Of a stretch of 64,000 bases of DNA, positions 2,925 to 64,000 are shown piece by piece. Location of the stretch: assembly GCF_000473325.1 (NCBI RefSeq), contig NZ_AXBI01000020.1:248001-312000 (forward strand), written 5' to 3'. Each line of letters starts with the position of its first letter. Position 1 is the first letter of the stretch. The DNA comes from Leisingera caerulea DSM 24564. GTDB taxonomy: Bacteria > Pseudomonadota > Alphaproteobacteria > Rhodobacterales > Rhodobacteraceae. The notes beneath the pieces were generated by a model. The model worked only from the letters and a program-made list of their open reading frames with translations. It ran no database searches and was not told where the DNA came from. The position numbers and the translations under genes were made by a program.

Positions 2925-3004
2925 TTTCCTTTTTCGCACTTCTCCTTTTCACGGTTCTGCCTCAGCCTGCAGCAGGTGAATTCAATATGGAAAGGTCGCG
3001 AAAC

Positions 3005-3220
3005 ATGCCACTGGCTGAAAAACTTACTGCAGATGACTGGCAGCACGATGCAGGTGCTGACCGGGTAGAGAATATCGCAGTTTACGATCCGAAGATCAGC
3101 GAAGCTCTTCCGCGCCTTGCGTTGCGCTTCATTTCTGAAAAGGGGTTGTCTGAAGAATTCGCAGATGTGCTGGAGGAGATCCAGAGCATCGAAGCAGAGA
3201 GCAACGACCCGGCCCCTTGA
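3005..3220 (+). CDS. Small hypothetical protein, 71 aa
   Basis: The chosen ATG (peptide MPLAEKLTADDW) has GGAAAGG about 9 nt upstream. An alternative ATG at 2987 is less well spaced. The protein is acidic and predicted alpha-helical, ending EEIQSIEAESNDPAP. TTTTCGCA at 2931-2938 lies 67 bp upstream, the usual relation of this octamer to genes of the element. It sits between tRNA-His and the tRNA-like gene at 3234, which begins 13 bp after its stop. No family recognised. Confidence 0.7.
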   Translation: MPLAEKLTADDWQHDAGADRVENIAVYDPKISEALPRLALRFISEKGLSEEFADVLEEIQSIEAESNDPAP

Positions 3221-3233
3221 GGCCGCCGCTCTC

Positions 3234-3308
3234 TTGACCGTAGCTCAGCCTGGGAGAGCAGCCCTGAATGGCGGGGTGGTCGCGGGTTCAAATCCCGCCG
3301 GTCAGGCA
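3234..3308 (+). tRNA. tRNA-like gene, isotype unclear (degenerate)
   Basis: The acceptor TTGACCG/CGGTCAG, D-stem GCTC/GAGC and T-arm GCGGG-TTCAAAT-CCCGC are good. The anticodon arm GCCCT/GGGGT leaves loop GAATGGC, which lacks U33 and would read ATG. If two bases were lost from the 5' side of the stem the anticodon would be GAA (Phe). The 3' end is GGCA rather than encoded CCA, unlike its neighbours. Probably decaying. Confidence 0.55.
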
Positions 3309-3365
3309 CTTCCGGCGACAGCCTGCCTATGCGCACGGCGCGCCTTGAGGGGACACCCCCTCTGC

Positions 3366-3896: not shown

Positions 3897-4057
3897 CGGG
3901 GCCGCGGGCGGGCGGTCCGCGCCAGGTCATGGAAAGCCGCGCAGTGCCCTCGGGCCTGCGCGGAAGAAATACGCCCGGGTTGCTGGCAGTCGATATGACG
4001 GCACGTTTTTTCGCACACGCATGTTAACCTCTGCTGGAGCAATCAAGAGAGGCAATC

Positions 4058-4468: not shown

Positions 4469-4499
4469 TGGCTCCCTCCTGCCGGCAATAGCTGGAATT

Positions 4500-10230: not shown

Positions 10231-10800
10231 TCAGAAAACCGGGCAGCCGCTTTCCGATATCGCACCGGAATAGACCGGGTATCCCGGCTTCGGGTTCAGA
10301 ATGACGTTCTGAAGACCGGTAATGCGGTACATGCAGGCATCCGACGCGGCTTTTCCGACGCCCTTGCCGTCGACGTAGATGTCGATCCAATCGTGACCCT
10401 GGTAGCCGCTGTGGCAGGGGCCGTCCTGCGGGGACGGGCCATCGCCGCAAAGATCCTCAACAATTGCGTATTTTCGCAAACGCTCGATGTAGAAGCGGGT
10501 TCCGGCGGGATAGTCCATGATGCTGCGGCCGTTTTTCTTGACATGGCCGACAGCCAGTGTGACCGGGTCATCATAGGTGCCGGTTCCGCCTGCCTTGCGA
10601 TGGATCACCGGGCGCGCAATCTGCGCGGATCCTGGCGGAGTATTATCCCAGTAGCTGTAGCCGGTCAGGTACATTGTCCGGCGGGCTTCACCGCTCGAGG
10701 TTTCCGTCTTGACCGGCTCTGCGCTCCCGCCGCCTCCGCAGGCAGTGGTGAGAGCAACCGCCGCAAATGCAGCAAGGGTTTTCGCAATCGAATTTTTCAT
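10231..10800 (-). CDS. Secreted lipoprotein with barwin/RlpA-like fold, 189 aa
   Basis: The N-terminus is a lipoprotein signal peptide (KNSIAKTLAAFAAVALTTAC, Cys at about residue 21), then a Gly/Glu linker. The mature part has TMYLTGYSYWDN, GGTGTYDDPVTLAV (about residues 92-105), YPAGTRFYIERLRKYAIVEDLCGDG and GHDWIDIYVDGKG. These resemble double-psi beta-barrel proteins in which GTGTYDDP and YxxVED are conserved. Four Cys in the second half may form disulfides. It would sit in the envelope, perhaps acting on peptidoglycan. The octamer at 10849 lies 49 bp upstream; another copy (10471) lies inside the gene. Confidence 0.7.
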   Translation of the reverse strand: MKNSIAKTLAAFAAVALTTACGGGGSAEPVKTETSSGEARRTMYLTGYSYWDNTPPGSAQIARPVIHRKAGGTGTYDDPVTLAVGHVKKNGRSIMDYPAGTRFYIERLRKYAIVEDLCGDGPSPQDGPCHSGYQGHDWIDIYVDGKGVGKAASDACMYRITGLQNVILNPKPGYPVYSGAISESGCPVF

Positions 10801-11226
10801 GAGTTTTCCCGACTAATCTGACAAGCGGAAACCTGAACTGTTTCTGTTTTTTCGCATAGTCGCAAACGTGCGGGCGGGATTGTTTATCCACACGAAAATG
10901 TTCCTGCCCCGTTCTATAGCAGGAACAAATGGCGCCGGATGGCCCGGCGCTTCCGGGGATACCCTTCGGCAGGTTGGCTTAGAGGCAGCCACCCTCTAAG
11001 GAGTGACCCCCTTGCATCGCAAAAGTTGGGCCTTATCCCTGCGGCAGCCGGCCGCCACGCCGGACCTGCAGGAGAATGGTCACCGCGTCTTCCCGGGTGA
11101 CGGGAAGAACCCGCTGAGAAGCGCAGGCGCCCTGCCCGGGTCGCTGTGCCTGCGCCGCGGGGGTGCTGATCCGGGAGGAGAAGACAGGTCTTTGGCGTAG
11201 CAGCACATCGAAGGCCCCCGGAATAT
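10801..11226. other. Non-coding gap with promoter motif and rRNA-like segment
   Basis: 426 bp between the lipoprotein start and tRNA-Thr(GGT). It holds the octamer at 10849-10856 and a second partial copy, then the 23S-like segment 10971-11005 (separate entry). No credible ORF. Confidence 0.6.
10967..11012 (+). ncRNA. 23S rRNA GTPase-associated-centre-like segment
   Basis: Bases 10971-11005 match the consensus of bacterial 23S rRNA helices 43/44 (E. coli about 1054-1090, the L11- and thiostrepton-binding loop) at about 32 of 35 positions, from memory of that consensus. The core is GTTGGCTTAGAGGCAGCCA; the invariant A1067 equivalent is kept and A1070 is G. The H43 stem TGGCT/AGCCA is intact. 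The match stops after GGAGTG, where rRNA would continue CGTAATAGCTC. It is not part of an rRNA gene. A poor tRNA-like fold (loop CTCTAAG) is the alternative. Confidence 0.55.
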
Positions 11227-11921: not shown

Positions 11922-11949
11922 TTGCGTTTTCTCTTTTTTCGCATACTCT
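11922..11949 (+). promoter_or_regulatory. Promoter with TTTTCGCA in the spacer
   Basis: TTGCGT (11922-11927), 16-bp spacer ending in TTTTTTCGCA, then TACTCT (11944-11949). The octamer abuts the -10. It serves the gene starting at 11979. The same arrangement is seen at 14330. Confidence 0.5.
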
Positions 11950-14329: not shown

Positions 14330-14356
14330 TTGCGTTTATACTTTTTCGCATATAGC
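14330..14356 (+). promoter_or_regulatory. Promoter with TTTTCGCA in the spacer
   Basis: TTGCGT (14330-14335), a 15-bp spacer ending TTTTTCGCA, then TATAGC (14351-14356), 44 bp before the MazG-like gene. The -35 and the octamer position match the promoter at 11922. Confidence 0.5.
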
Positions 14357-16827: not shown

Positions 16828-16856
16828 TTGCAATTCTTTTTCGCATAACTTATCTA
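16828..16856 (+). promoter_or_regulatory. Promoter with TTTTCGCA in the spacer
   Basis: TTGCAA (16828-16833), a 17-bp spacer containing TTTTTCGCA, then TATCTA (16851-16856). It is 81 bp before the 16938 gene. Confidence 0.5.
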
Positions 16857-18421: not shown

Positions 18422-18589
18422 AACTAAGTATCCGTTCCACTGGGTCCCGTAATGTCGGACAGTATAGCACCATATTATGAAACCAGATAGTATCGTTTTC
18501 GCACAAACAATCAGGTCGGCACGATTGGGCATTCAGGCAAGGATGTGCCCGCCCCGCGCAATGCCGAGGTGCAGACTTGCCCGGCCCCG

Positions 18590-19210
18590 TCAGACGTTGA
18601 TCAGGATTGGTTCCGTCGCAACCTGTTCAGGGTCATAACCGGCCGCAAGCCTTGCCCGCATTTCCGCAGCCAGGCGGCGATCGTATGCGGGATCCAATGA
18701 AAGGCGCCGCGGAACGTCCTGCCCGAAGATATGAAGCGCCAGCGTGCCATCCGCACTAACCCTTTCGATCATCGGATCCTCAGCGAAATACAGGTATGAG
18801 GTGTCCTCTCCGGGGCTCGCATACACGGGCGTGACGCAAATCAGCCTGCCGTTTTCCTCAATCACAGAATGGAAAACAAAACCATGTCCGTTCTGCCACC
18901 ATCCGTGAATAGCCTTTCGACTGCCGCTCCAGTCGTTGCGCTCCATCAGGACCGCATTGTCATGGCAGCACAGATGCAGCATGCCATTCTGTTCCGCAAG
19001 CTCCCAGCGCGGGATCGGCTGGAAGTCCAGTTCGAGGATGTGGCTGAGCACTCTCTCATCATGTTCGGTGTAATGAATTTCAAGCAGGTCACATTCTGCC
19101 AGAAGTTCAGAAGCAAGGGTCGATACCCCTTTAATGCCCTGGTCCAAGCGCAAGACTCCAAAAGAGCCACGATGTGGCGATGCTGTAATATGCGCTGTTG
19201 TTTTTCGCAA
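18590..19210 (-). CDS. Hypothetical protein, 206 aa
   Basis: The first ATG is itself part of an octamer copy (ATGCGAAAAAC, 19202-19209 region), so either the motif overlaps the start codon or translation starts further in. The protein has HILELDFQPIPRWELAEQNGMLHLCCHDNAV and GTLALHIFGQDVPRRLSLDP, a mixed fold. It diverges from the 19326 gene; the 115-bp gap holds a second octamer (19240-19247). No family recognised. Confidence 0.65.
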   Translation of the reverse strand: MRKTTAHITASPHRGSFGVLRLDQGIKGVSTLASELLAECDLLEIHYTEHDERVLSHILELDFQPIPRWELAEQNGMLHLCCHDNAVLMERNDWSGSRKAIHGWWQNGHGFVFHSVIEENGRLICVTPVYASPGEDTSYLYFAEDPMIERVSADGTLALHIFGQDVPRRLSLDPAYDRRLAAEMRARLAAGYDPEQVATEPILINV

Positions 19211-19325
19211 ATAAAGTAAAATATGATGGCGATTGATGCTTTTCGCATTTTCGCTGAGCGCAGGTAGGCTGCTCAGGTATCAACTGCTGGGCCGGGACCA
19301 GCAGCTTAAGAGGGACGGCTCACGC

Positions 19326-22394: not shown

Positions 22395-22645
22395 CAGCGC
22401 TTCCGCATCTACACAGAAACGTAACCCTTGGATTCCACAAGTGTAGAGATGCAGTAGTCCAGCATTGGCGCCATACCATTTGTAGATTGCGATAATGTCT
22501 AAACCGGCACCGGCTGCCGCGAAGCGCCGCCCCAACCTGCGGATGTTCATTTTTCGCATTTCCCCTTTTGCAGTTTGCGAAAATATATTAGATTTCCTTT
22601 GAAATGTCTTAGAGCAACAGAATTCATCAAATAGGATATCCCGGC
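22395..22645. promoter_or_regulatory. Promoter region with two octamer copies
   Basis: TTTTCGCA at 22551-22558 and TGCGAAAA at 22576-22583, 25 bp apart and in opposite orientation. TATATT immediately after the second copy is a likely -10 for the 22646 gene. Confidence 0.5.
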
Positions 22646-23623
22646 ATGAGCAAGAAACTCGGAACCGTACTGATCGCTGGCGGCATCGTGCTGATTGGGG
22701 CCATTGGCGCCGCGGCCCTGCTCTCCCCTTCAACGCCCGTTGACGACAAGCCCTATGCGCGGGTCCAGGCCCCAGAGCCGGTCGCTCCCCGTGCGAAGGA
22801 CTACACCGCGCAGGTGATCGACCAATGCCTGTCGTCGACCGACCTGTCGTACCAGGAGTGCGCCGAGATCGCACCGGAGGTGACTGAGGACCTGGTAAGC
22901 ATCCGGCCCCACCCTTCTCAAAACGTTTGCGAAAACGAATACGGAGTCGGTGCATGCCATCAAGACGGCGCCGGAATGTTCCTGCCGATCGCCGCCATGC
23001 TGATCGCGACCGAACTCGTCGATGAGGTCGGCGACTACTACGAGAAGAAGACCCGGGCAGGCCGCACGGGCGTGCAGCCCATTCGCACCGGTAAGCCTGC
23101 AGCTTCGGATGGATCCGCGAAGAGCTGGTCCGCCGCCTCAGCGCCGAAGCCAGCGGTTCTTTCCAAGCCCGAACCGAAGACGATGCCCGCAACAGGCGGC
23201 TCAACCGAGAACTGGGCGGCGACATCGCGCAGCGTGCCCGCAACCGCCCCGGCCACAAAGCCGGTAAGCCTCTCAAAGCCCGCTCCGGCCGCAGCACCGA
23301 AACCCGCGCCCTCCCCTGCCGCCGCAGGCGGCTCTACCGAGAACTGGGCGGCCACCTCGCGCAGCGTGCCCGCAACGGCTTCGGCCGCAAAGCCGGTGAG
23401 CCTCTCGAAGCCCGCCCCGGCCGCAGCGGCGAAGCCCGCACCCAAGACTGTGCCTGCCGCATCGTCTTCCGCAGCGCCGGTTCAGAAGAGCGCTCCGAAA
23501 CCGCAGAGGCCTGCGGTCAAAAGCCCACCCGTTCAACGCCAGCGGGCCACTCCGAAACGGCACAGCTCTTCGAAGAGCTCCACAAGAAGGTCTTCCGGCA
23601 ACAGCCGCCGCAGGCGGCGCTGA
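22646..23623 (+). CDS. DUF1190/YgiB-like membrane-anchored protein with repeats, 325 aa
   Basis: N-terminal membrane anchor (TVLIAGGIVLIGAIGAAALL). Then a DUF1190-like domain: QVIDQCLSSTDLSYQECAE, NVCENEYGVGACHQDGAGMFLP and IAAMLIATELVDE (about residues 54-128). Two imperfect repeats of about 42 residues follow (each starting GGSTENWAATSRSVPAT and ending in a KPAP run). The last 50 residues are extremely basic and Ser-rich, ending RRSSGNSRRRRR. The layout suggests an inner-membrane anchor with a long periplasmic or envelope-binding tail. Family members are envelope proteins of unknown function. Confidence 0.7.
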   Translation: MSKKLGTVLIAGGIVLIGAIGAAALLSPSTPVDDKPYARVQAPEPVAPRAKDYTAQVIDQCLSSTDLSYQECAEIAPEVTEDLVSIRPHPSQNVCENEYGVGACHQDGAGMFLPIAAMLIATELVDEVGDYYEKKTRAGRTGVQPIRTGKPAASDGSAKSWSAASAPKPAVLSKPEPKTMPATGGSTENWAATSRSVPATAPATKPVSLSKPAPAAAPKPAPSPAAAGGSTENWAATSRSVPATASAAKPVSLSKPAPAAAAKPAPKTVPAASSSAAPVQKSAPKPQRPAVKSPPVQRQRATPKRHSSSKSSTRRSSGNSRRRRR

Positions 23624-25088: not shown

Positions 25089-25120
25089 TCTCTCACCCAA
25101 TTTGCGAAAATTATTTCCGC

Positions 25121-25149
25121 AATATTTCAATCAGCGCCAGGCGTGTCAA
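25121..25149 (-). promoter_or_regulatory. Sigma70-type promoter bracketed by two octamers
   Basis: On the minus strand: TTGACA (25149-25144), 17-bp spacer, AATATT (25126-25121). Octamers lie at 25159-25166 (about 10 bp upstream of the -35) and 25103-25110 (just after the expected transcription start). It drives the K+ channel gene. Confidence 0.7.
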
Positions 25150-25413
25150 TCATATTGTTTTTCGCATCTTCTTGTTCGCGGCGGGCTTACCGGGAACCCA
25201 GCGGAAGTTCCGCAAGGTGCTGAGGGCATAGATGCCCCCGCAGCCAATCAAAACGCTCCACAAAACGGATTCCTGAAGGATGCCGACCGCGGCTGCGAAG
25301 AAAAATGGCCCGCTCAGGAGGCCGCGCAGGTCGCGTTTGAGCTTTGCACCGCATTTGGGGCAATCGAGTTGCCCTGGCTTCAGCTCCCCGCCACAAATCC
25401 CGCATCCGATCAT
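25150..25413 (-). CDS. Zinc-ribbon membrane protein, 87 aa
   Basis: Start at the Met with GGAG 6 nt upstream (an earlier in-frame ATG lies at 25425). N-terminal CGICGGELKPGQLDCPKCG is a four-Cys zinc ribbon. A hydrophobic pair follows (PFFFAAAVGILQESVLWSVLIGCGGIYAL), then a basic end NKKMRKTI, which is encoded by an octamer copy. Family of zinc-ribbon membrane proteins; role unknown. Its end reaches into the promoter of the K+ channel gene downstream. Confidence 0.7.
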   Translation of the reverse strand: MIGCGICGGELKPGQLDCPKCGAKLKRDLRGLLSGPFFFAAAVGILQESVLWSVLIGCGGIYALSTLRNFRWVPGKPAANKKMRKTI

Positions 25414-25594
25414 GCTCGTCTCCATTAAAAGGCTTTCCCGGACGTGGCCGGATTGTTCCGTGCGTCAAATCTACCACCGTCCAGCCTGGAGCAGGAACGC
25501 CGGGTCGCGTGGAAATTGTGGATAACTGGATAGTTTTCTTCTTCTTTTCGCAGGCCCGTGCTGAACTGAAGGAGCAACAGCAAGGAGGTACGCC

Positions 25595-25947: not shown

Positions 25948-26586
25948 ATGCCTGACTACTGCCAGCGCACGGATTCCCTGCGCCCTGTCGCTTCTGCTTT
26001 TCCAGCCGACTCCATCCCCGCCCCGTCGAATGGCGAACCGCGCAAAAGTGCGAAAAATCCCGGCGCAGGTGATGGCCTGCATCAAACTGCCAGCATCATA
26101 AAAAACTACTGCGTGCCGCTGATCGAGCACCTGAACCGCGGCATGACAAAGGGGCAGATCCCCCTGCCAGCCCTGGATGCCGCCTTTCTTGCTTTGGAGG
26201 CCCTCAAGGATGCAGACCTGCCTGGCGCCGGTTGGCGTGTGGTCGCAGGACGCATCACCATGATTGAAGGATCCGGTTCGCTGTATCAGAAGGGTTTCTG
26301 GCTGCAAGCCGACGATGGCCGCATTCTGGATCTTAACCGTCCGGACCTGGACGCCGGTGTCCGCGTTACCAGGGCGGAAGACAGCCTGATCGCGGAGTAC
26401 CGCTTTGAGAAGGCGCTTACCGACCGCAAAACCAGCCCGCTCTACCGGATCTGGAAGGGCGAAATCGAAGGCTACACCGACTTTGCCAGCCGGGCCGCCA
26501 TGCGCAGCGCCTATGAGGGAATGAAACAGAAGGTGGCTCAGGCGCTGGCTGCCTCCCTGTCTGCCGGAAACGCCGGCCGCCATTAG
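25948..26586 (+). CDS. Hypothetical protein, paralogue of the next gene, 212 aa
   Basis: A disordered N-terminus (about 40 residues, crossed by an octamer copy at 26049) precedes a domain with DLPGAGWRVVAGRITM...GFWLQADDGRILDLNRPDL at about residues 90-132. The same W-R-x-V-x-G ... W-L-x-x-D-G-x-I-L-D pattern recurs in the 26645 gene. The C-terminus is helical. This pattern recalls small papain-like or transglutaminase-like folds, but no catalytic Cys is evident, so I leave function open. Confidence 0.7.
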   Translation: MPDYCQRTDSLRPVASAFPADSIPAPSNGEPRKSAKNPGAGDGLHQTASIIKNYCVPLIEHLNRGMTKGQIPLPALDAAFLALEALKDADLPGAGWRVVAGRITMIEGSGSLYQKGFWLQADDGRILDLNRPDLDAGVRVTRAEDSLIAEYRFEKALTDRKTSPLYRIWKGEIEGYTDFASRAAMRSAYEGMKQKVAQALAASLSAGNAGRH

Positions 26587-38499: not shown

Positions 38500-38631
38500 G
38501 GCTCGTCCTGCCTCCCCCTCCGGAATACCTTATATTTTTTCGCATTTCAATTGCGGCGCACCACCCCGTCTGGTATCTTTTTCGCATATCGCGCCGCTCG
38601 CCGGCCAGAACACCTTTACTCGGAGCAATCG
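38500..38631. promoter_or_regulatory. Divergent promoter region with two octamers
   Basis: TTTTTTCGCATT (octamer 38537-38544) and TTTTTCGCATAT (octamer 38579-38586), 42 bp apart in the same orientation; the second is 45 bp before the 38632 start. Confidence 0.55.
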
Positions 38632-45165: not shown

Positions 45166-46085
45166 CCCACGGACTCTCCTGCATCTCCTGGCGCTGCCTC
45201 AAGCGCCATTTCTGAAACCATGCCCTGACCGATCGCAAACTCAGCTTCGAAATCGCCGAACAATTGCCGCAGTCGGCCGGTCTTTTCCAGCTCAGCCATC
45301 TCGGCTTCACTGAACCACCGCGCCATATTCTCGCGGTACCCCTCGAAGTCAACACGCCCCTCCGTCACCAGGTCCCGCGCAAGCCCCTGGTGGATCTCTT
45401 GAGCCGTGCGGCCGTAGATCCCCATCGTCGCGCTGAGCGCATCTTCGCGGTCATCGTCCGGGCTGACCAGCGGATGGAGGAAGCCCAGATCGTGAATATC
45501 GCGATGCTTCAATGCCGGCCGCTGCGCCATTGCAACGATTTTGTCTGCCCAGATCGATCGCGGAGTTGCGGCAAGCAGCTCGCTGCGGGAAACGGTGCCG
45601 CCCATCTCCGGCCGCGTGACTTCTGCAGAATATGCAGCAATGCGTTCTGGCGGGCAGATGTAAAATTCGACTTTCACTTTCACTGCACCAAGGTAGCCCG
45701 GATGCTCCCAGCGGATCTGCAGACGATCGACATCCCCCATTTTCGGCTGCGGGTTCGTCATCTTGCTGGTCAGCGAGACGCTTGAGCCAGGCATGATCAG
45801 AGAAGAACGCAGCTGCAGGGCAGCCTCGATATTCGCAGACCTTGACATGAGTTTTCGCACAGTTTCCGGCGCCCCCATGAAGTCCAGGTCTTCCGACCAC
45901 CTGGGAGATCCATGGATGATCGAAAGAGATGTTCCCCCATGGAAAACGAGATTGGCGCCCAGCTCGTCAGTCTTCATGTAGTGGCCGATTTCCTCCAGCG
46001 CCCGCAACTGCAACTCCTTGGAGATGCGGATTTTCATATCGCTGGTCAGAGGCTTCCGGTTCAGCCTGATCATCTTGTCGACCAC
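45153..46085 (-). CDS. AbiEii/AbiGii-type nucleotidyltransferase, about 310 aa
   Basis: GTG start proposed with AAAGGACG upstream; an ORF start at 46145 has no ribosome binding site. NLVFHGGTSLSIIHGSPRWSEDLDF (about residues 44-68) is the AbiEii pattern GGT...R.SEDLD with two catalytic Asp. The C-terminal half has RSIWADKIVAMAQRPALKHRDIHDLGFL, also typical. Family members are toxins of type IV abortive-infection systems that pyrimidinylate tRNA acceptor ends. Coupled to the 44692 gene. Confidence 0.8.
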   Translation of the reverse strand: MVDKMIRLNRKPLTSDMKIRISKELQLRALEEIGHYMKTDELGANLVFHGGTSLSIIHGSPRWSEDLDFMGAPETVRKLMSRSANIEAALQLRSSLIMPGSSVSLTSKMTNPQPKMGDVDRLQIRWEHPGYLGAVKVKVEFYICPPERIAAYSAEVTRPEMGGTVSRSELLAATPRSIWADKIVAMAQRPALKHRDIHDLGFLHPLVSPDDDREDALSATMGIYGRTAQEIHQGLARDLVTEGRVDFEGYRENMARWFSEAEMAELEKTGRLRQLFGDFEAEFAIGQGMVSEMALEAAPGDAGESVGCSF

Positions 46086-48127: not shown

Positions 48128-48286
48128 CTGCGCTCTCCTGCTTTCTGATAGCCTAATGTTTTTTCGCGAAAATTCACGACAATCATTGCAAGCCGCATGC
48201 GGCCTTAGAAGCAGGAACGGCTGCCAATTCCGCCCCAGTATCTCCGGATAGGATTTTCAGCGCAATACTTTTTCGCATAACGAAAA

Positions 48287-48925: not shown

Positions 48926-49014
48926 AATGTCCTCCGTGGGTGGGCTGTTCAGGTTGATCGTCTGCCTACAAGGGTAGGAATCAGGCGTGAAAATTGAAAT
49001 ACCTTTTTCGCATT

Positions 49015-54100: not shown

Positions 54101-56319
54101 AGAGGCTTGTAGAGGTTCATGCCCGAAGGGTCGCGCGACGGCGTTGCGGTGCCGTAGACCACGTTGGCCGGCCCGACCTGGTCCAGCATGTTGCGGACAT
54201 TGCGCCCCTGCCGGGATTTCGGGTTCAGCGCATTATGCGCCTCATCCAGAATGATCAGGGTGCGCTCATCCACGGCGTTAGCAGCCCAGATCGAAGACGG
54301 GTCATCCTCCGCGCCACGGAAGGAAGAGTAGGTGCTGATGATCAGGTTGTTTTCCTCAGGCCATGCCTCAGAGGAAAAGATCTCCTTGCGGCGCGCGGCC
54401 GGCGGAGACGTCAGCTCCTGAACAATCTCCTCCCCGGTTTCGGGGTCGATAGTGACATCCCGCATCCGTGTGTTTGCGGTCATGAACAGCGTGCGGCATT
54501 CAGGCCAGGCGCCTACATCCTTCAGATCGCGGCCGACATCGGGCGCATTGATTTCGGCACTCTCAGTCAGGTAGAGAACCTTGTTGCGCGGATCTGCGCG
54601 CAGATGCTCACGGGCGATTGCGGCCAGAGAGCGCCCTTTGCCCACGCCGGTCTGGTCGGCAAGCAGGAAGCCGCGGCCGCGTTCGCGGGCGTTCATGCGC
54701 ATGGCAACCGCATCCACCTGCTCCGCAGTCAGGATGTCGCCAAGGCTATCGATCGACTGGCCGAGTGCGGCGGCAACAACCCCGTCCACGCCCCCGCGGT
54801 CTTCAAAGTCGCGGCGAACCCGGTCAAGCGCCTTGGAGGTGGCTCCCTCCAGGGCAACCGGGATCATCGTGAAGGGTTCCTTCACGGAAGACAGCGGCTG
54901 ATAGGGCTTCTGACGCAGGTTTTCTTCACGATCATCCTCAACATCCTTCGCGGAGGCTTCCACCCCGTTGTGGAAATCGCGGATCCTGGCCTGCGAGCGG
55001 GAGATCTCGCGCTCCAGGTTCATCAGATCGTCTGTGGTCAGCACGGAGAAGGTGCGCAGCGCAGCCTGCGGCAGAGCATCCAGTGGCTCCGGCCGGCGCT
55101 CACCGATCAGCATGATGGTTGATGGATCGCCGTCCTGCATCCCATCCGCAACGGCGGAATTGATTTCGGCCACCACCTCGAGCGCATAATTCCGGCCGAC
55201 TTCGGCGCGCAACTTCTGCATGGCGTCACTCGAGGCGCTCAGAGGAACGCGGAAAATGGTCCGGCCCGCTGCCGGGCGGCGCGCGAGGACGTTGGAAGCG
55301 TAAGCACTGAGGCCGTCGGCAGGCATGCCGCCCAGGTCATGAACCTGGAGCGGCGCATCATCACGGCTGATGCGCGGCATGGCGATGCGCAGGTCATCCG
55401 AACCGCGGAAGTCGACCGCGGTTTGACCGCGCACAGCCCGGCGCATGAACGCGATCATCGCTGGCGAAGGCGACAGAACGGAGTCTGGTTCGGACTTCGC
55501 CGAAAGAACAAAGCCGGTTGCTGTTGCGATCCGCAGCGCAGCGATGAATTTGTCCCTGGAGGCGTCGTTCTCGATGGCAATGGCAGAGATTTCGCGCAGC
55601 ATGTGGTAGCGCACCGCCGCATAGACCTCGTCCATTTCCATATCGAGCTGCCCGTGCGGACCCGGCTCGCAGGCGGCTTCAACGACACGGCGGTAATCTG
55701 CAGAGTGAAGGGTGCCCCGCGAGCCCATGACGACCAGGCTTGAGGCGATCACCTCAAGGTCTTCCTTCCGCCCCGCACGCAGGAACAGGGTTGCGTTCTC
55801 GCCCTCCCCCTCGTGAACAAAGCTGCTCCGGCCGTCTGCCTGGTTCACCCTGCGGAAAAAGCGGCCGGTGCCATCCCGCACAACTTCCTCGCCGCGGATG
55901 TTGAGGCCGATCGTTTCGATGTTCTTCGGATCCGGCTGATGGATTTTGGTTTTCGCAATTTGCGCAACAGCTGGCGCCCGTTCGGACAGGTTGATGGTCC
56001 ATTTGTCGGACAACAGGACATCACGGTCAACCGCAAAGGTCTCACCGCCCAGGGCCGCCGCAAGGGCGTTTGCGCCGAAGGGGATTTTCCCATCCGGGAA
56101 CAGCATCCGCAGGGTGCCCCGCGTTTTCAGCTCGGTGAAGCCGAAACTCAATGCTTTTTCGCGGATCGTTTCAGCAAGATCCCCTTCGGTGGTGCGCAGC
56201 AAGAGACCTTTGGCGCCACCCGGCACCAGCACGCGGCGCAAGATTGCGGCGTTATCGGCAAAACCCACCCAGGCTACAAGGTTCGCACGGTTATTCTCTG
56301 GCTGGTTCTGAGTTGCCAT
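51181..56319 (-). CDS. Strawberry-notch-type SF2 helicase, 1712 aa
   Basis: TGAGGGA precedes the ATG. Residues about 540-720 form the helicase first lobe: LTAEQVDAVAMRM (Q-like), RGFLLADQTGVGKGRSLAAIA (Walker A about 555-565), FMTANTRMRDV, LIISTYSSFRG, TLIILDEAHNALNPKS (DEAH about 688) and VVYGTATPSRDP. The second lobe at about 1020-1090 has LIYNSAGATGGSYHAS and SQGRGNRYGQVHNP, the SBNO-type helicase C-terminal pattern. About 500 residues precede and 600 follow, without recognised domains. Giant SBNO-like helicases are known from phages and alphaproteobacterial plasmids. It probably remodels DNA or nucleoprotein. Confidence 0.88.
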   Translation of the reverse strand: MATQNQPENNRANLVAWVGFADNAAILRRVLVPGGAKGLLLRTTEGDLAETIREKALSFGFTELKTRGTLRMLFPDGKIPFGANALAAALGGETFAVDRDVLLSDKWTINLSERAPAVAQIAKTKIHQPDPKNIETIGLNIRGEEVVRDGTGRFFRRVNQADGRSSFVHEGEGENATLFLRAGRKEDLEVIASSLVVMGSRGTLHSADYRRVVEAACEPGPHGQLDMEMDEVYAAVRYHMLREISAIAIENDASRDKFIAALRIATATGFVLSAKSEPDSVLSPSPAMIAFMRRAVRGQTAVDFRGSDDLRIAMPRISRDDAPLQVHDLGGMPADGLSAYASNVLARRPAAGRTIFRVPLSASSDAMQKLRAEVGRNYALEVVAEINSAVADGMQDGDPSTIMLIGERRPEPLDALPQAALRTFSVLTTDDLMNLEREISRSQARIRDFHNGVEASAKDVEDDREENLRQKPYQPLSSVKEPFTMIPVALEGATSKALDRVRRDFEDRGGVDGVVAAALGQSIDSLGDILTAEQVDAVAMRMNARERGRGFLLADQTGVGKGRSLAAIAREHLRADPRNKVLYLTESAEINAPDVGRDLKDVGAWPECRTLFMTANTRMRDVTIDPETGEEIVQELTSPPAARRKEIFSSEAWPEENNLIISTYSSFRGAEDDPSSIWAANAVDERTLIILDEAHNALNPKSRQGRNVRNMLDQVGPANVVYGTATPSRDPSGMNLYKPLLPQTSDAGLDELLDNMVSGGEVAQEAFATMLAEDGVLLRRDHDLSNIDFQVSLPDDEQMLRYQEIMNTFSPVVELMIECSGQIGEHLGRRQSAAYMGMLRQGMSREAARAMTNEMNQYSIALGSPLANLARITMNAIKIDQVVDDALQEIAEGRKPLITFHSTNTSLLQELSKGPDGRTSVEAMNAATDLTLKDQIRRIHASMYRVKIEGEFRDAREVYPDIARTFEMIDAQIEQIPDSLPVSPIDALVEKLEQNGVTVGEISGRTLCYRDNRIQRRQGRNRRETVDNFNAGGLDVLIYNSAGATGGSYHASPKFADQRPRTMLELEAPVDVIKYVQSQGRGNRYGQVHNPRVKSVMTGLTPEMRILQQRNRKLRSLGASVDGNRSHPLLLDDVPDLLNKVGDEATRNVLMSMPALSRRLGFPEFAEDPQNQNRGNEAVDTGSGTAKTDIDSLSNKVLARSIMLTAREQDDLVQRIRMEFDALIEELESRNANPLRPKQLDGQVEVRATTIYSGMETEEGDLDTSAFLSPLYIHTGIHHFNEEAWSGDKLVTEVEACRRLYGADGFQPWADRIYQNLPILMRPFLPEGVAMEDALENPGAVGQKFRVRHSRFTDLAWLLENMKPGVSLRFPTEFDVEASTNRTIVGLVPPNDPMFYDIPSAYKIKTISPGMAKPETTSLSRILSIDMERIFFRPGLSESFQESYLEEFDRDSLMTRRLPVQVLSGNILQAINEAARHDLGTVSLYRDTDDHVHRGIVVNKSKVNMENLPVTIPNGRVASKFVHRFLTEDGLVEKEGLAKAWGAVSGNRGMGDRNDAELILTVTARSFKLDMLPLRRTTYDFYAERPGLYELMYNKPLPARSEAPAKAYRRPGTKGDHIVHIRFESDEERQRALAILEALDVPLLTDGKFRNLINSAINEVDQPGATEHSFDAAPEAGEEAAAHQECPQGHDEAAVEPEEEAEELSFETVEWR

Positions 56320-56496: not shown

Positions 56497-56527
56497 AAAA
56501 AAACCGCCCGAAGGCGGTTTTTCTTTT
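56497..56527 (-). terminator. Terminator after the 56546 gene
   Basis: AAAACCGCC-CGAA-GGCGGTTTTT stem with an A/T tail on both sides; the octamer 56525-56532 abuts it. Confidence 0.85.
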
Positions 56528-56545
56528 TCGCATAAAGACCCTGTA

Positions 56546-57937: not shown

Positions 57938-58106
57938 TTAGGTTTTCCTTTTTTCGCATCAGTAGTCGTCCTAACGCGGCACAAGGCCGTCGTTGACAAG
58001 GCGAGAATTAATCAGGTTCAAGAAAAGCGCAATGCGAAAAATATTCGTTGAGATGTTTTTTTCGCAAATTCGCCCCGGCCGCGCGGGCCGGGGCGATCAC
58101 CGCAGA
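57938..58106. promoter_or_regulatory. Regulatory gap with three octamers
   Basis: TTTTCGCA at 57951-57958, TGCGAAAA at 58033-58040 and TTTTCGCA at 58059-58066 within 169 bp, the densest cluster in the window, upstream of the 56546 gene. Confidence 0.55.
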
Positions 58107-60521
58107 TCACGCGGTCTGTTTGCGGCGGCTGCCGCTGGACTTCTTTGCGCCGCCCATCATCTTGTCGATGAATGCGGAACAGTCCTTCATGTTCTTCTTG
58201 ACCGCTGCCGGCAGGTCCACATTGTTTTCTTCGGCAAGCTTGGTGGCAAAGGCGAGCTGTTTTTCGGATGGCGGCCGGGGCGGCGCCTTCTTCATCGCGG
58301 CATCAATCCAGGCCGACAGCGCCTTTGAGGATTCCTTGGCATCGTCCGGAACCTGCGTGCCCGCCTCGCCTGCAAGCTTGGCGGCCAGGGCAAGCTGCTT
58401 CTCCGAGGGCGGATAGGTTCCGCCTTGCCCCGCGGGGGCGTTCGGGTCACGCTTGGGAAGATGCTCTTCAAGGAATGCCCGGCACACGGAAGCATCCGTT
58501 GTGCATTTCGCAGGAAGCTTGATCTTCTTGCGCTCAGAGACTGCCTTTGCCGCAGCAACCATCTTGGGGCTTGGCTTCACCGTCTTGCCGATCGTGATGC
58601 TCACCGATCCGGACGCGTTGGTGATATTCTGGATCTCCTTCTTTGTCTCCTGGAAGATTTTCTCCAGGGCATCCTCTGCGGCCAGCCTCCCCTGCTCCAC
58701 GAGATCGAAGATCGTCTCCCAGATCGCTGTGCGTGCCGGATCGACGACATTCGGGCAGGCTTGCATGAGCGCTTTGTAAAGCCGCATGCCGCCCTCTGTC
58801 GGGATGAAGCTCTTACCCTTCATCTTGACCTGCCCCTGCTCGATGAGCCCCTTCACAACATCACCGCGTGTCGCGGGTGTTCCGATGCCCTTGGCCGCCT
58901 TAAGCCGCTCGCGGTTCGGGCCGGGCGGCACCAGGCGCCAGGCCTCCTGCATCAGCTTGATCAGGCTGCCTTCGGTATACCGCGCAGGAGGCTTGGTCGT
59001 CACAGTGCGCAGCTTTGCGCTTTCGACGTTTCCTTTTTCGCCAGCATTGATGGCCGGAAGCTCCTGCTCGCCATCTTTCGCAGATGAGCCCGCGCCGCCA
59101 AGGATCTCTTTCCAGCCTGGAACCAGCGGGACCCGCCCGGATGTCCGGAAGTCCCAGTCATGCCCTTTCCAGGGGAACCGCATCTCGATGGTGGTTTGGC
59201 GGTACTCAAAATCAGGTGCCAGCGCCGCAAGGTACTGGCGGACGATGACATCAAACAGTTTCGCTTCATCCTGCGTCAGGCTTGGCACGGTCGCAGCGAA
59301 GCTTTCGGCCGTATTGACGTTGGGAATGATCGCATAGTGAGACAGCCCCTCGAGGGCCTTGTTGGAAAAATGCCCGCTTTTCCCTTTCCGCACTTGCGGA
59401 GACTGCAGGAGCGGCTGATGACGGCCGAATTCCGGCAGGCGCAGGAGTGCCGGCACCAGCTTGGGAATGTCCGCAATGTTGTTTTCGGGAAGGTATTTTG
59501 CTTCACCGCGCGGATAGGTGATCAAGGTTCGTTCTGAATAGAGCTTCTGAGCGATTTCCAGCGTCTTCTCACCGGTCCAGCCGAACTTGGAGGAAGCGGT
59601 CGACTGCAGGGCGGTGAGATCGAACAGCTTCGGAGGCCCTTGCCGCTTCTTCTCCGACTTAGAGCGCAGGTCGCCCTGAAAGCCCACAACCGCGGCACGC
59701 AGACCCTCCGCGATATCGCGCTTCATGATGCGGCCGGACGTGTTTTCCTGCTCCTGCAGAGCTGCCTGGTCTTCAGTCAGCTCCTCTTCATCCTCATCCT
59801 CCGCATCTTCGATCTGCTCTTTGAGAAGCGATTTCGGAAGCTTGGAGCAGGTCAGAGTGAAGGCGCCAGCGGCCACCGAGGTCTGAGCGTCGACTTCGAA
59901 CATGTCCTGCGGCTGGAAGTTTTCAATCTCCAGCTCGCGTTTGCAAATAATCCCGAGAACCGGGCTCTTCACCCGTCCGATGCCAATAGCGCCGCGCGAG
60001 CCCGGATCCTTGAGACAGGCGGTCGCGGTACGGGTCAGGGAGAGGTTCGTGGTCTGGTCGGCCTGTTCCCGGGCCTGACCGGACATGTAAAGGCCCCTGA
60101 ATTCTGAGTTCGGCCGAAGGTTTGCAAATGCCTGCTGCAGAGACTTCGGATCCTCGGCGTTGAAGATGCAGCGCAGCACCTCTCCGCGAAACCCGAGATA
60201 CTCGACGATCTCATCCCCGATCAGCTGACCTTCCCGGTCGCAGTCAGTTGCGATGATGATGCGGCTGGCGGAACGTGCCGCGCTGCGGATTGCGTCGAGC
60301 TTGGCCTTCGTCTGAGGCACCGGCTTCTTCTCATAAAAGCGCCCAGGCCACAGAAGCCCAGGGCGCCATTTCCCCGCCCATTCCTCACGAACCTCATCAG
60401 GCTCTTTCAGAGTGAGGATGTGCCCTTGCGCGGGCAGCACCTGGCCGAATTTGGAACCGACAGCCCGCTTGATCGCCTGGGCTTGTGTCCCTTTTTCGCA
60501 AATTACAATCGAAGAACTCAA
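58107..60521 (-). CDS. topB: Type IA DNA topoisomerase (TopB-like), 804 aa
   Basis: TTG start (MSSSIVICEKG) with AAAAGGAG upstream; the octamer at 60493 codes for the ICEKG residues. Toprim domain with IIIATDCDREGQLIGDE (about residues 86-102). Active-site Tyr region is ERTLITYPRGEAKYLP (about 331-346), where most family members have ITYPRTDS. IGIGRVKSPVL is the conserved strand-gate motif. Residues about 690-790 carry two PSEKQLALAAKLA-type repeats, seen on topoisomerases of plasmids. It relaxes negative supercoils or decatenates daughter molecules. Tail is basic. Confidence 0.92.
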   Translation of the reverse strand: MSSSIVICEKGTQAQAIKRAVGSKFGQVLPAQGHILTLKEPDEVREEWAGKWRPGLLWPGRFYEKKPVPQTKAKLDAIRSAARSASRIIIATDCDREGQLIGDEIVEYLGFRGEVLRCIFNAEDPKSLQQAFANLRPNSEFRGLYMSGQAREQADQTTNLSLTRTATACLKDPGSRGAIGIGRVKSPVLGIICKRELEIENFQPQDMFEVDAQTSVAAGAFTLTCSKLPKSLLKEQIEDAEDEDEEELTEDQAALQEQENTSGRIMKRDIAEGLRAAVVGFQGDLRSKSEKKRQGPPKLFDLTALQSTASSKFGWTGEKTLEIAQKLYSERTLITYPRGEAKYLPENNIADIPKLVPALLRLPEFGRHQPLLQSPQVRKGKSGHFSNKALEGLSHYAIIPNVNTAESFAATVPSLTQDEAKLFDVIVRQYLAALAPDFEYRQTTIEMRFPWKGHDWDFRTSGRVPLVPGWKEILGGAGSSAKDGEQELPAINAGEKGNVESAKLRTVTTKPPARYTEGSLIKLMQEAWRLVPPGPNRERLKAAKGIGTPATRGDVVKGLIEQGQVKMKGKSFIPTEGGMRLYKALMQACPNVVDPARTAIWETIFDLVEQGRLAAEDALEKIFQETKKEIQNITNASGSVSITIGKTVKPSPKMVAAAKAVSERKKIKLPAKCTTDASVCRAFLEEHLPKRDPNAPAGQGGTYPPSEKQLALAAKLAGEAGTQVPDDAKESSKALSAWIDAAMKKAPPRPPSEKQLAFATKLAEENNVDLPAAVKKNMKDCSAFIDKMMGGAKKSSGSRRKQTA

Positions 60522-61814: not shown

Positions 61815-61825
61815 TTGCAGCCCTC

Positions 61826-62281
61826 CTAGAGGCCATGATCCACACCGATACCGGCGCCGATGCGGGAGCGCCAGAACGTCACCGAAACCCCGCTCGGCAT
61901 GTCCGGATCGCTTTCTATGATGGTCCGGCACAACACCTTGATATCGCGATCAACCAGGTGGGAGCCCTCAATGATAATCTGGGGACAGTGCTCCAGCAAC
62001 GGCCTGGCAAAGTATTCAAGATCCGTTTCGGATGCCTCGAGCCCTTCGCTGTCGACCAGATATCCCATGACGCCCGGCCCTTCTGCACGCATCTCAAATC
62101 CCTCAAGGGTCGACCGCGCAGTGAACAGCGCGCCTTCCTCCCGGGGGATATGGAGATCGCAAGCAAGCATGCGGGTCATGACCTCACGGCCTTTCGCACC
62201 CTTGATGGGGCCCAGCTTGATGCTGCCATCCATCATGGGCACAAAAGACACAGGTTTTTCTGCTTCAGAGTCGAAGTTCAT
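61826..62281 (-). CDS. Hypothetical protein, 151 aa
   Basis: Eight bp after the SNF2 gene stop, with GGTCAGGC upstream. Sequence alternates strand and helix: VSFVPMMDGSIKLGPIKGAKGREVM, DLEYFARPLLEHCPQIIIEGSHLVDRDIKVLCRTIIES. Co-transcribed with the 60552 and SNF2 genes. No family recognised. Confidence 0.7.
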   Translation of the reverse strand: MNFDSEAEKPVSFVPMMDGSIKLGPIKGAKGREVMTRMLACDLHIPREEGALFTARSTLEGFEMRAEGPGVMGYLVDSEGLEASETDLEYFARPLLEHCPQIIIEGSHLVDRDIKVLCRTIIESDPDMPSGVSVTFWRSRIGAGIGVDHGL

Positions 62282-62289
62282 GCCTGACC

Positions 62290-64000
62290 TTATAACGGGA
62301 GCTCGGGCTGGGTTTCATCCACATTTGCGTTCTTCCCGGACCGGGTCCGGGTTTTGTTCACCCGTACTCCAGATGCGCCGGCGTCGCCAGTCACAATTTC
62401 CGATGAAGCGCGCCTCGTGGTCTTCATCCCCCGATAACTCATTGTATTCACTGCGCGCTCATCGGTTTCCATTTTTGCATGAAGTGCAAGTCCCATTTTC
62501 ACATCCAGTGAATTCGGCACAAACAGATATCCGATGTCGCAAGCCTGCTCTTGCCCAATCCTCCAGATGCGGTCCTCGATCTGCGTCATGTTCGAGGGGG
62601 ACCAGTCCGGCTCCACCACACGCATCCGGTGTGCCGCGGTCAGAGTGATCCCGGTTGCTCCCGAGAGCGACATGATGAACAAACGGGAATTCGGATTTTC
62701 CTGGAAGGCATCCACTTTGGCCTGCGCCTGCTGCGCATTGCCCTTGGAGCTGCCATCATAGACAAGCACCCCGCCTGGAAACTCGGCTTCCGCCATTTCG
62801 GCAATCTTGCGGATAACCTCTTTGTGGTGCGCAAAGACCACCGTCTTCCGGCGAAGATCGGCCGGAAGATCCTTATCGTCATGCAGCTCGTCAATGATGA
62901 AGCGGGCCGCATGGGGCGCCTTGAGAACGCCGAGGTTTTTTCGCACACGCGCGATTTCCGAGAAATGGGGGCTTCCCGGGTTCATGCCGCCGATTACGTC
63001 AATGACTTCACGGGCCTGCCGTGTCTGTCCGGCGGTCAGCTTCTTTCCGCGGATGCGATCGTGGATTTCATCCAGGTCCGCCTCAGCCTGCTTGAGAACC
63101 TCCAGATCCTCCTTGGAGAGGCGGAATGGCATCTCGATCGGGGTGCGCATCTTGGGCGGCAGATCCGTATCCCGCTTCAGGCGCCGGATGAAGGAACCCG
63201 ACCCGCGCATGCGCATCTGCAGTTCCAGCTCGCGGATCGGCTTGCCGGGCATTGGAACGATAATCTTGCGCGGCTTGCCCCCTTTGAACTTTGACTGCAC
63301 CTCCCGCTGGATCAGGATGGGAGGCTCATACCGGTTGAGAAAAGCCTGCCGCGCCTCAGGGCCCCTGCCCCAGATATCCGGCCGGCTTGAGGTGAGCAGC
63401 GGCCACAGCTCGGCGACCCGGTTCGGCTTGGGTGTACCGGTCAAATGGACCAGCTGCCCGTTCTTGTTCATCGGAATAGGTCCAAGGCCCTCAAAGCTGT
63501 CGAGATCGCCCAGAATGGCCTGGGTCCGCTGGGCCTCAGGGTTCTTCAGGTTATGGGCCTCGTCAGTGATCACCAGGTCCCAGTTGATCGTGCGGATCTT
63601 GTCGATGTTCTTTTGGGCGATATCGTAGTTGATCACTACGATATCCGTATCAGGGAAGGTTGAGCCTTCAGCGTAGCCCACGGTCAGATCACGGTTGATT
63701 TTCCACTTCTCAATTTCGCGAACCCATTTCAGCTTCATGTTCGCCTGGCAGAAAAAAATGGCCCGTTTCGCATCCGGGCGGCCATTGAGTACGCCGATAC
63801 CCTGAATGGTTTTCCCGAGCCCCATGTCGTCAGCAATGATGGCCCCCTTGCCGCTGTCCACCACCATTTGGATGCCGCCCTTCTGGAAATCGAAGTAATC
63901 GATCCCCTCCGGGGCCGGCACAGCGAAATCATCGGGAGCCTTCTGGGTCTTGCTCAGCGCGATATTGCGGCTGGCTGCGCCAAGCGCCTTTTGCATTTTC
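62290..64000 (-). CDS. SNF2-family ATPase, 5' end cut by the window edge, at least 568 aa
   Basis: An ATG at 63996 may be the true start, but only four bases upstream are visible, so the gene may extend beyond the window. Motifs: FQKGGIQMVV then GAIIADDMGLGKTIQGIGVL (Walker A), VINYDIAQ, LVITDEAHNLKNPEA (DEAH about residue 144), LTGTPKPNRVAEL, and the second lobe TVVFAHHKEVIRKIAEM, GVLVYDGSS, IMSLSGATGITLTAA and IEDRIWRIGQEQACDIGYLF. Resembles SMARCAL1/HARP-type single-chain SNF2 ATPases that reanneal or remodel DNA. An octamer lies at 62938. Confidence 0.88.
   Translation of the reverse strand, partial: KMQKALGAASRNIALSKTQKAPDDFAVPAPEGIDYFDFQKGGIQMVVDSGKGAIIADDMGLGKTIQGIGVLNGRPDAKRAIFFCQANMKLKWVREIEKWKINRDLTVGYAEGSTFPDTDIVVINYDIAQKNIDKIRTINWDLVITDEAHNLKNPEAQRTQAILGDLDSFEGLGPIPMNKNGQLVHLTGTPKPNRVAELWPLLTSSRPDIWGRGPEARQAFLNRYEPPILIQREVQSKFKGGKPRKIIVPMPGKPIRELELQMRMRGSGSFIRRLKRDTDLPPKMRTPIEMPFRLSKEDLEVLKQAEADLDEIHDRIRGKKLTAGQTRQAREVIDVIGGMNPGSPHFSEIARVRKNLGVLKAPHAARFIIDELHDDKDLPADLRRKTVVFAHHKEVIRKIAEMAEAEFPGGVLVYDGSSKGNAQQAQAKVDAFQENPNSRLFIMSLSGATGITLTAAHRMRVVEPDWSPSNMTQIEDRIWRIGQEQACDIGYLFVPNSLDVKMGLALHAKMETDERAVNTMSYRGMKTTRRASSEIVTGDAGASGVRVNKTRTRSGKNANVDETQPELPL

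Follow-up and report, generated by a model that had tools for sequence, protein, structure and literature searches.

The window, meaning the whole 64-kb stretch of DNA analysed here, lies on C5, a 564,457-bp RepABC replicon, and carries tRNA genes together with genes for several helicases, a thymidylate kinase, an AAA ATPase, a DUF6638 protein, an AbiEii-like protein and topB. The octamer TTTTCGCA occurs in it in 39 exact copies on the two strands, against 2.9 expected by chance (100 dinucleotide shuffles; mean 2.9, sd 1.6, maximum 8). The original prediction had located these copies correctly and counted about 38, while setting the chance expectation too low, at about 1. The copies, compiled from exact octamer matches and our own gene calls, are distributed as follows.

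2931..2938, +, motif copy with tRNA genes on either side
4008..4015, +, motif copy 42 bp ahead of the start called at 4058, with TANNNT at +17
10471..10478, +, motif copy within called gene 10231-10800(-)
10779..10786, +, motif copy at the 5' end of called gene 10231-10800(-)
10849..10856, +, motif copy 48 bp before the start of gene 10231-10800(-)
11936..11943, +, motif copy 59 bp ahead of the start called at 12003
14343..14350, +, motif copy 55 bp ahead of the start called at 14406
16838..16845, +, motif copy 92 bp ahead of the start called at 16938, with TANNNT at +17
18496..18503, +, motif copy in non-coding DNA upstream of gene 17828-18388(-)
19202..19247, +, motif pair (19202, 19240) in a divergent intergenic region
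22551..22583, both strands, motif pair (22551 +, 22576 -) at the start of gene 21843-22559(-)
22928..22935, -, motif copy, non-coding
25103..25166, both strands, motif pair (25103 -, 25159 +) upstream of gene 24051-25088(-)
25545..25552, +, motif copy, non-coding
26049..26056, -, motif copy 56 bp ahead of the start called at 26113
26937..26944, -, motif copy within called gene 26645-27304(+)
27308..27315, -, motif copy, non-coding
30710..30770, +, motif pair (30710, 30763) between the PIF1-type helicase gene (-) and the thymidylate kinase gene (+)
31418..31425, -, motif copy near the 3' end of the thymidylate kinase gene
32281..32335, both strands, motif pair (32281 +, 32328 -) before called start 32357
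34426..34433, -, motif copy near the 3' end of gene 33415-34506(+), upstream of AAA ATPase gene 34550
38537..38586, +, motif pair (38537, 38579) upstream of DUF6638 gene 38632
39804..39811, -, motif copy 116 bp from the 3' end of the DUF6638 gene
45852..45859, +, motif copy within AbiEii-like gene 45153-46085(-)
48270..48277, +, motif copy in non-coding DNA upstream of gene 47366-48127(-)
49005..49012, +, motif copy in non-coding DNA upstream of gene 48332-48925(-)
55950..55957, +, motif copy within the strawberry-notch helicase gene
56525..56532, +, motif copy upstream of strawberry-notch helicase gene 51181-56319(-)
57951..57958, +, motif copy 13 bp upstream of gene 56546-57937(-)
58033..58066, both strands, motif pair (58033 -, 58059 +) upstream of gene 56546-57937(-)
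60493..60500, +, motif copy at the 5' end of the topB gene
62938..62945, +, motif copy within the SNF2-type helicase gene

Non-coding DNA makes up 23.4% of the window by our gene calls, tRNA genes included, and holds 28 of the 39 copies, in keeping with the two thirds first proposed. All seven pairs named earlier, 25-56 bp apart, are real. In the tRNA array, the copy at 2931 was placed correctly, and the one assigned to 4007 begins one base later, at 4008. The extended octamer TTTTTCGCAT has 17 copies in the window; it was said to cover most non-coding copies, and does so by a bare majority (15/28).

Placement across the replicon

C5 carries 281 of the 391 copies in the genome, or 1 per 2 kb, against about 1 per 43 kb in the remainder, where the other eight contigs together hold 110 copies in 4.78 Mb. 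The enrichment thus persists across the complete element and is not matched by the host, and a host-wide motif was rejected on these counts. Non-coding DNA, 17.8% of C5, contains 203 of the 281 copies, only two of which lie between convergent genes. Copies stand upstream of genes in both orientations, with 71 antisense and 41 sense copies in front of co-directional genes, and among divergent and co-directional intergenic regions 60 bp or longer, about half contain the motif (139/281). Gaps between neighbouring copies are 120 bp or shorter in 47 of 280 cases, against 16.2 expected. Across C5, the copies are not randomly placed relative to genes.

Within genes, copies lean towards the 5' end, lying no more than 60 bp from the called start in 13 of 78 cases on C5 (expected share 7.3%) and in 17 of 54 on a related element of Gemmobacter caeni (expected share 6.6%). 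The 3' end accounts for 5/78 and 6/54, respectively; of the clustering at both gene ends proposed earlier, the 5' part is retained, while the 3' part is unsupported in C5 because so few in-gene copies lie there.

Distances from copy to start codon are broad overall, and those copies within 200 bp of co-directional starts are mostly within 120 bp. TANNNT follows exactly 17 bp past the start of sense copies in 19 of 162 cases, compared with a mean of 1.1% at other offsets, while antisense copies show it 36-37 bp downstream (10/175 and 10/174; mean 0.9%). The proposal that, in some promoters, the octamer occupies the spacer ahead of the -10 accordingly holds for a subset, the fixed distance being limited to about one tenth of sense copies and the rest having no hexamer there. 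A search for TTGAC/TATAAT-type hexamers near copies gave no clear signal.

The site, its relatives and a DnaA domain IV protein

The octamer is the core of a longer site, with W at -5, T at -1 and WAT after it, whose 9-mer form is mostly TTTTTCGCA, flanked by AT-rich sequence. This 9-mer is a version of the DnaA box TTWTNCACA that differs at positions 5 and 7, so that the earlier remark that no described system has this motif needs a qualifier. In non-coding element DNA, 257 copies of TTTTTCGCA stand against 13 of TTTTTCACA, and the dominant site is not the canonical DnaA box; canonical TTWTNCACA boxes are over-represented there as well (41 vs 8.6 expected). C at position 5, permitted in the DnaA box, shows no excess (6 vs 6.0), which counts against regulation by a DnaA_C protein. 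Most likely, judging from its sequence, the site is a re-specified DnaA box.

The motif recurs in related elements, with 179 copies of TTTTCGCA in that of Gemmobacter caeni (4.6 expected) and 66 and 51 on two contigs of Defluviimonas salinarum. These genomes stand out against 10 and 21 others of the same genus, and same-genus genomes without the DnaA_C protein described below show no excess. Further large relatives include those in Paracoccus sp. ME4 and Pseudosulfitobacter pseudonitzschiae. C5 and the Gemmobacter element have 173 reciprocal-best-hit genes in common, among which one HU-like and one XRE-like protein can be picked out by eye. Upstream copies precede 79/173 of the compared genes on C5, 64/173 on the Gemmobacter element and 32/100 in Defluviimonas. 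At orthologous promoters, copy position and orientation are not kept in detail, which argues against a DnaA_C regulator, and the Defluviimonas ortholog test weakens as at least 60, 100 or 150 bp of upstream DNA is required (p 0.085, 0.43 and 0.6).

The likeness to the DnaA box led to a search for PF08299 (DnaA domain IV), which was then found on all three elements. On C5, the candidate regulator is encoded outside the window, at C5:515920-516723 on the minus strand; it has 267 amino acids, and the profile search places PF08299 at residues 163-226 (E 7.3e-17), its C-terminal half being DnaA domain IV with the same fold as DnaA. In the called proteins of C5, Gemmobacter and Defluviimonas, PF08299 is the sole match at E up to 0.1, and AAA+ domain III is absent. 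These AAA+-less proteins are orthologous, and the motif precedes their own gene in all three elements; this sign of autoregulation is weak evidence by itself, since upstream copies are common among the compared genes.

DnaA contacts bases through R399, P423, D433, H434, T435 and H439, according to the available text of PMC7561715. In 12 of 14 relatives, including all three element proteins, R399, D433, H434 and T435 are kept and positions 423 and 439 are replaced, with P423 changed to T, S or A and H439 to N (E. coli numbering); among the 14 rows, P0080 and P0084 are near-duplicates of others. The two more distant rows, L115 and P0089, retain H439 and do not share the pattern. Structural re-alignment defined residues 151-252 as the region covered by at least one fifth of rows. 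A plasmid collection yielded three matches to the regulator, at 30-32% identity.

Wider surveys bear on the motif and the protein alike. Among 295 genomes, moderate excesses over the reversed control were seen in G120 (425 copies vs 111, the listed places scattered over contigs) and G109 (359 vs 148). Distant DnaA_C proteins in G102, G209, G059 and G014 were accompanied by 0, 0, 1 and 2 motif copies on the fetched stretches, with whole-genome copies against the reversed control of 52/61, 143/78, 80/43 and 458/192, and 80 viral-contig loci with DnaA_C relatives showed no excess (28 copies vs 49.6 expected); both the fetched stretches and the viral loci speak against the DnaA_C reading. At strawberry-notch homolog loci, 17 of 19 (L038-L041, L043-L055) contain between 0 and 3 copies apiece, with TTTTCGCA absent from the eight top octamers of those 17. 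In viral contigs, an alignment search found no helicase relatives, and the pair pattern appeared in two contigs with 2 copies each.

Interpretation, rival readings and known systems

The octamers are probably the operators of one element-encoded, DnaA-derived regulator, a prediction that bears out the original suggestion of a single element-encoded regulator and for which the DnaA domain IV protein on the same replicon is the candidate. This protein would bind the motif, and binding would alter transcription: it would occupy about half of the divergent and co-directional intergenic regions of C5, whichever way the motif points and often through two sites, setting transcription of the motif-bearing regions, its own gene included. 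In the sense subset, the site would lie in the spacer just before the -10-like hexamer, and in the antisense subset just upstream of the -35 position, a geometry that suits a regulator blocking or contacting RNA polymerase; our guess is that repression is the commoner effect. The protein is expected to prefer TTTTTCGCA strongly over TTTTCCGCA, TTATCCACA or scrambled sites. With confidence slightly better than even, an ATPase-less DnaA domain may be the master regulator of a giant, probably conjugative plasmid family, its box re-specified with two contact changes, acting at close to half of the promoters on elements from three genera, at two fixed positions on some promoters, with sites that separate native backbone from acquired cargo. 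If true, this would provide a wiring plan for very large plasmids, which have to keep the burden of hundreds of genes in check, with one short operator at a large share of promoters and one regulator; it would also make DnaA domain IV a dedicated transcription factor whose code has changed, testable by a two-residue/two-base exchange. The motif also offers an easy computational marker of the family's backbone genes and contigs.

Operators of an element-encoded regulator fit better than a dedicated promoter, a segregation signal or a host factor. It is unlikely that another element-encoded or host regulator occupies the sites, with the DnaA_C protein doing another job and the DnaA-box likeness being accidental. 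Binding of the motif by the DnaA_C protein is a prediction, and other DNA-binding proteins among the 173 shared genes, such as the HU-like and XRE-like ones, are excluded only in part; however, the box likeness itself led to the domain on three elements, and the contact residues are changed together with the box. A purely host factor is unlikely because the same-genus genomes without the DnaA_C protein have no excess. That the sites work by titrating or guiding the host's DnaA, or serve the initiation or timing of replication rather than transcription, is very improbable: the DnaA-box-like motif and the surplus of canonical boxes would suit such a role, but the consensus departs from the box at two positions, the copies track gene starts across the replicon and shun convergent regions, and C5 has a RepABC module of its own (381054-384674), close to the minimum of cumulative GC skew, with the nearest motif copy about 1.2 kb away.

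That a dedicated sigma factor or RNA polymerase reads the motif as a core or extended promoter element, also suggested originally, is if anything slightly less probable again; the fixed spacing of the sense subset, the smaller antisense peak and the proximity to co-directional starts favour it, but antisense copies outnumber sense copies before co-directional genes, about nine tenths of sense copies lack the hexamer at +17 and start distances are broad. Hardly credible is a signal of the KOPS, Chi or uptake-sequence kind that would serve segregation, dimer resolution, uptake or recombination. The copies are many, and their strand excess (170 + vs 111 -) is strong in the 140-380 kb arc of C5, but it is not reversed in the other arc (intergenic 55 vs 52) and partly follows gene direction, while the concentration of copies in non-coding DNA stands against such a signal and the avoidance of convergent regions is left unexplained. 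Strand counts and GC skew in 20-kb bins showed no consistent polarity with replication, the excess being present in one C5 arc with none consistent in the Gemmobacter element, and gene direction being a confounder.

Titles and abstract openings of the papers listed, with subscription journals mostly outside this coverage, contained no account of a system of TTTTCGCA and a DnaA domain IV plasmid regulator. A DnaA-type DNA-binding domain outside DnaA occurs in some TnpA_REP-type HuH proteins, where a Bac_DnaA_C-like domain is C-terminal and a new target may have evolved, as its authors suggest; these are transposase-type fusions, and the available text of PMC6006769 describes no promoter-site regulon. 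Chromosomal DnaA shares with the element protein its DNA-binding domain, fold and four kept contact residues, and the site keeps TTWT-C-CA; in contrast, the element protein has no AAA+ domain and has residues 423 and 439 replaced, and its site favours T5 and G7 and occurs in hundreds of promoter-proximal copies on a RepABC replicon. DnaA itself is known to act as a transcription factor.

The DnaA-like replicases of Rhodobacterales are plasmid proteins named for a weak resemblance to DnaA. They are listed as a replication type beside RepABC in the available text of PMC9025767. Both they and the candidate are plasmid-borne and DnaA-resembling, probably in the same host order, but C5 already has RepA, RepB and RepC genes. 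The repressor of mycobacteriophage L5 acts at a few tens of short asymmetric stoperators that are oriented with transcription. The likeness lies in one element-encoded protein, a candidate in the present case, with many short asymmetric sites at gene boundaries, whereas the sites described here occur in both orientations and number in the hundreds.

Abundance and placement of the octamer

The octamer TTTTCGCA, for which the original prediction counted about 38 copies, is present as 39 exact copies in the window, with a mean of 2.9 and a maximum of 8 in 100 dinucleotide shuffles, and all seven of the predicted close pairs were recovered. The predicted non-coding share of two thirds also held, as 28 of the 39 copies lie in non-coding DNA (23.4% of the window), an assignment made from our own gene calls, which introduce error into non-coding fractions and start distances. 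Counting over the full replicon assigned 281 of the genome's 391 copies to C5, whose bases 248001-312000 make up the window; the density of about 1 per 2 kb on C5 differs from that of the host, where 110 copies on the other 4.78 Mb amount to about 1 per 43 kb.

On C5, 203 of 281 copies occupy non-coding DNA (17.8% of the contig), including 89 in divergent, 71 in co-directional antisense, 41 in co-directional sense and 2 in convergent contexts. Among intergenic regions of at least 60 bp, a copy is carried by 57/76 divergent, 82/205 co-directional and 2/43 convergent regions on C5, and by 34/54, 49/119 and 3/19, respectively, on the related Gemmobacter caeni contig. The divergent/convergent contrast is smaller on both related Defluviimonas salinarum contigs (divergent 7/18 and 5/11; co-directional 13/27 and 14/42; convergent 3/15 and 2/13). 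Close pairs are enriched on C5, with 47 gaps of at most 120 bp against 16.2 expected. Copies within genes, 75 of 78 of which are antisense to the host gene, are given little weight, since dinucleotide and trinucleotide models leave codon-usage effects there. Roles in replication or segregation match this placement less well than regulation does.

The window's strawberry-notch helicase, used as a query, matched 79 proteins, several on contigs of 345-733 kb and others on larger contigs that reach 4.8 Mb; named matches include Defluviimonas, Paracoccus, Cereibacter, Gemmobacter and Pseudosulfitobacter. TTTTCGCA was the top enriched octamer at 2 of 19 such loci in genome contigs, those of Defluviimonas salinarum (75% helicase identity) and Gemmobacter caeni (55%), and was not the top one at the other 17, all from metagenome-assembled genomes. 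The full Gemmobacter contig (446,545 bp) holds 179 copies against 4.6 expected, and the two Defluviimonas contigs hold 66 (2.9 expected) and 51 (2.8 expected).

Motif presence at orthologous promoters is associated between C5 and Gemmobacter. Of 173 reciprocal best hits, 42 have the octamer in the 250 bp before the gene in both elements, 37 in C5 only, 22 in Gemmobacter only and 72 in neither (p 7e-5). Restricting the comparison to pairs with 60 bp or more of non-coding DNA before both genes gave an odds ratio of 7.9 (p 0.0006, 64 pairs), and the ratio was 12.4 at 100 bp (p 0.0007) and 8.7 at 150 bp (p 0.019). For C5 and Defluviimonas, the raw odds ratio was 7.5 (100 pairs), and the controlled ratios at 60, 100 and 150 bp were 4.25, 2.7 and 3.0 (p 0.085, 0.43 and 0.6). 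Copies at orthologous promoters differ in position and orientation between elements, as would be expected of the turnover of regulatory sites; a loose association would give the same.

A candidate regulator related to DnaA

C5:515920-516723, minus strand: candidate regulator of 267 aa, DnaA domain IV (PF08299) without an AAA+ domain
G102 contig C247, 989-1717 (L115): DnaA_C relative in a 609-aa open frame

A homolog of the candidate (E 1e-20) was found in 1 of 22 genomes of the genus of the Defluviimonas genome, which carries 92 copies of TTTTTCGCAW (control 5) against 0-26 in the remaining 21. Similarly, 1 of 11 genomes of Gemmobacter's genus encodes a homolog; that genome has 92 copies (control 3), and the remaining 10 have 5-22. 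Among 295 family genomes, homologs above 100 bits were confined to the source genome and G102, which has no motif excess (52 copies, control 61).

In the matrix built from non-coding C5 copies, the octamer is preceded by W at -5, T/C at -4 and T at -1 and followed by W A T. The non-coding DNA of C5, Gemmobacter G296:C2 and Defluviimonas G295:C3 and G295:C6 totals 209,128 bases and contains 257 copies of TTTTTCGCA, with 5.3 expected. Its position 1 is loose (excess of A 24x, G 7.0x, C 4.7x); the top excesses elsewhere are A at 3 (11.6x), A at 7 (4.9x), C at 4 (4.0x) and A at 2 (3.1x), and C at position 5 is at expectation. The site thus resembles a DnaA box, TTWTNCACA, that favours T5 and G7. 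In the same DNA, canonical TTWTNCACA is about fivefold over-represented (41 against 8.6 expected) and TTTTCCGCA shows no excess (6 against 6.0 expected); thus, two overlapping site specificities may be present on the elements.

According to a review (PMC5742627), the DnaA helix 434-451 reads TnCACA through the major groove, and TTA is read by Arg399 through the minor groove; PMC7561715 lists R399, P423, D433, H434, T435 and H439 as contacts. Fourteen relatives were compared, of which 12 (C5, Gemmobacter, Defluviimonas loci and P0080-P0088) retain R399, D433, H434 and T435, with T, S or A at 423 and N at 439; among these, P0080 is 98% identical to the C5 protein, and P0084 seems to be a fragment of the Defluviimonas one. 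The remaining two relatives are L115, with T at 423 and H at 439, and P0089, an AAA+-bearing protein with Q at 423, H at 439 and S at 435. Chromosomal DnaA has P at 423 and H at 439 in ten proteins from 11 loci (a 143-aa frame was missed by the scan).

Many viral contigs (L120-L199) carry DnaA domain IV relatives. N439 occurs in 23/23 readable of 80 such loci, with 423 being P in 13, M in 5, L in 2 and T, K and S in 1 each; TTTTCGCA excess is absent at these 80 loci, which means that N439 on its own is no predictor of the motif. The combination of N439 with T, S or A at 423 does predict it in the three elements tested, and we infer that residues 423 and 439 would read box positions 5 and 7.

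The open frame at L115 includes a long degenerate repeat region, and its DnaA_C relative retains H439; the 9.2-kb contig has 16 TTTCGCGT against 0.5 expected, which may be a mere repeat.

Promoter geometry and proposed regulation

TANNNT was counted by offset from copies upstream of same-direction genes on the four element contigs, excluding the motif's own flank. For sense copies, it lies at exactly +17 in 19/162 (mean 1.1% per other offset), and at least two of its three letters match there in 46/162 (mean 13%); when anchors were instead placed at random within those 358 upstream regions, no offset exceeded 13 in any of 300 trials. Eighteen examples come from C5 (14), Gemmobacter (3) and Defluviimonas (1), and 15 of these have their hexamer ending 15-48 bp upstream of the called start. 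Taking the hexamer as the -10 would place the sense octamer in the spacer, at roughly -29 to -22. For antisense copies, two weaker peaks occur at +36 (10/175) and +37 (10/174; mean 0.9%), which would put the octamer at about -48 to -41. Most copies have neither arrangement, or their -10 escapes TANNNT. The two geometries were observed in a minority of promoters, in upstream regions of C5, G296:C2 (Gemmobacter) and G295:C6 (Defluviimonas).

The simplest account would be a single regulator, derived from DnaA and encoded by the element, that would act on several hundred predicted operators, its own promoter among them. The spacer position in the sense subset would suit a repressor that occludes the promoter, and an antisense copy near -44 could serve either activation or repression; both directions are guesses. 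Neither the domain and its fold nor the concept of a regulator acting across a whole element is new; the portions of the literature searched yielded no case of a DnaA domain IV that lacks the ATPase, has a re-specified box and regulates a family of giant plasmids.

C5 as a replicon

C5:381054-384674: genes for RepA, RepB and RepC
C5:108923-141562 (L006, L007): largest motif-free gap, 32.6 kb
Window 29-6725, 11227-11301 and 15275-15350: 25 tRNA genes

C5 (564,457 bp, in a genome of nine contigs and 5.34 Mb) encodes RepABC close to the cumulative GC skew minimum, secretion/conjugation-type genes (three T2SSE-family ATPases, a secretin domain, DotM), and a DnaG-type zinc ribbon, NAD ligase, TopB, UvrD, and SNF2 and strawberry-notch helicases. 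From this gene content it is taken to be a RepABC giant plasmid that is probably conjugative; no exact overlap between the contig ends was found. Named relatives of the genome's genes belong to Rhodobacteraceae, and the host is taken to be a member of that family. The largest motif-free gap, much longer than expected by chance (about 2.5e-5), looks like acquired cargo rather than backbone: the 10 of ~18 genes scanned inside or at its edge (one partially) include phage-type integrases, an IS66 transposase, flavohaemoglobin, folE2, a peptidase, permeases and a Cas3-like helicase.

Of the 25 tRNA genes on this replicon, 23 lie within less than 7 kb, an array with just two motif copies. Intergenic copies are biased to the + strand in C5:140000-380000 (69 to 27) against 55 to 52 elsewhere, a bias that gene direction explains only partly.
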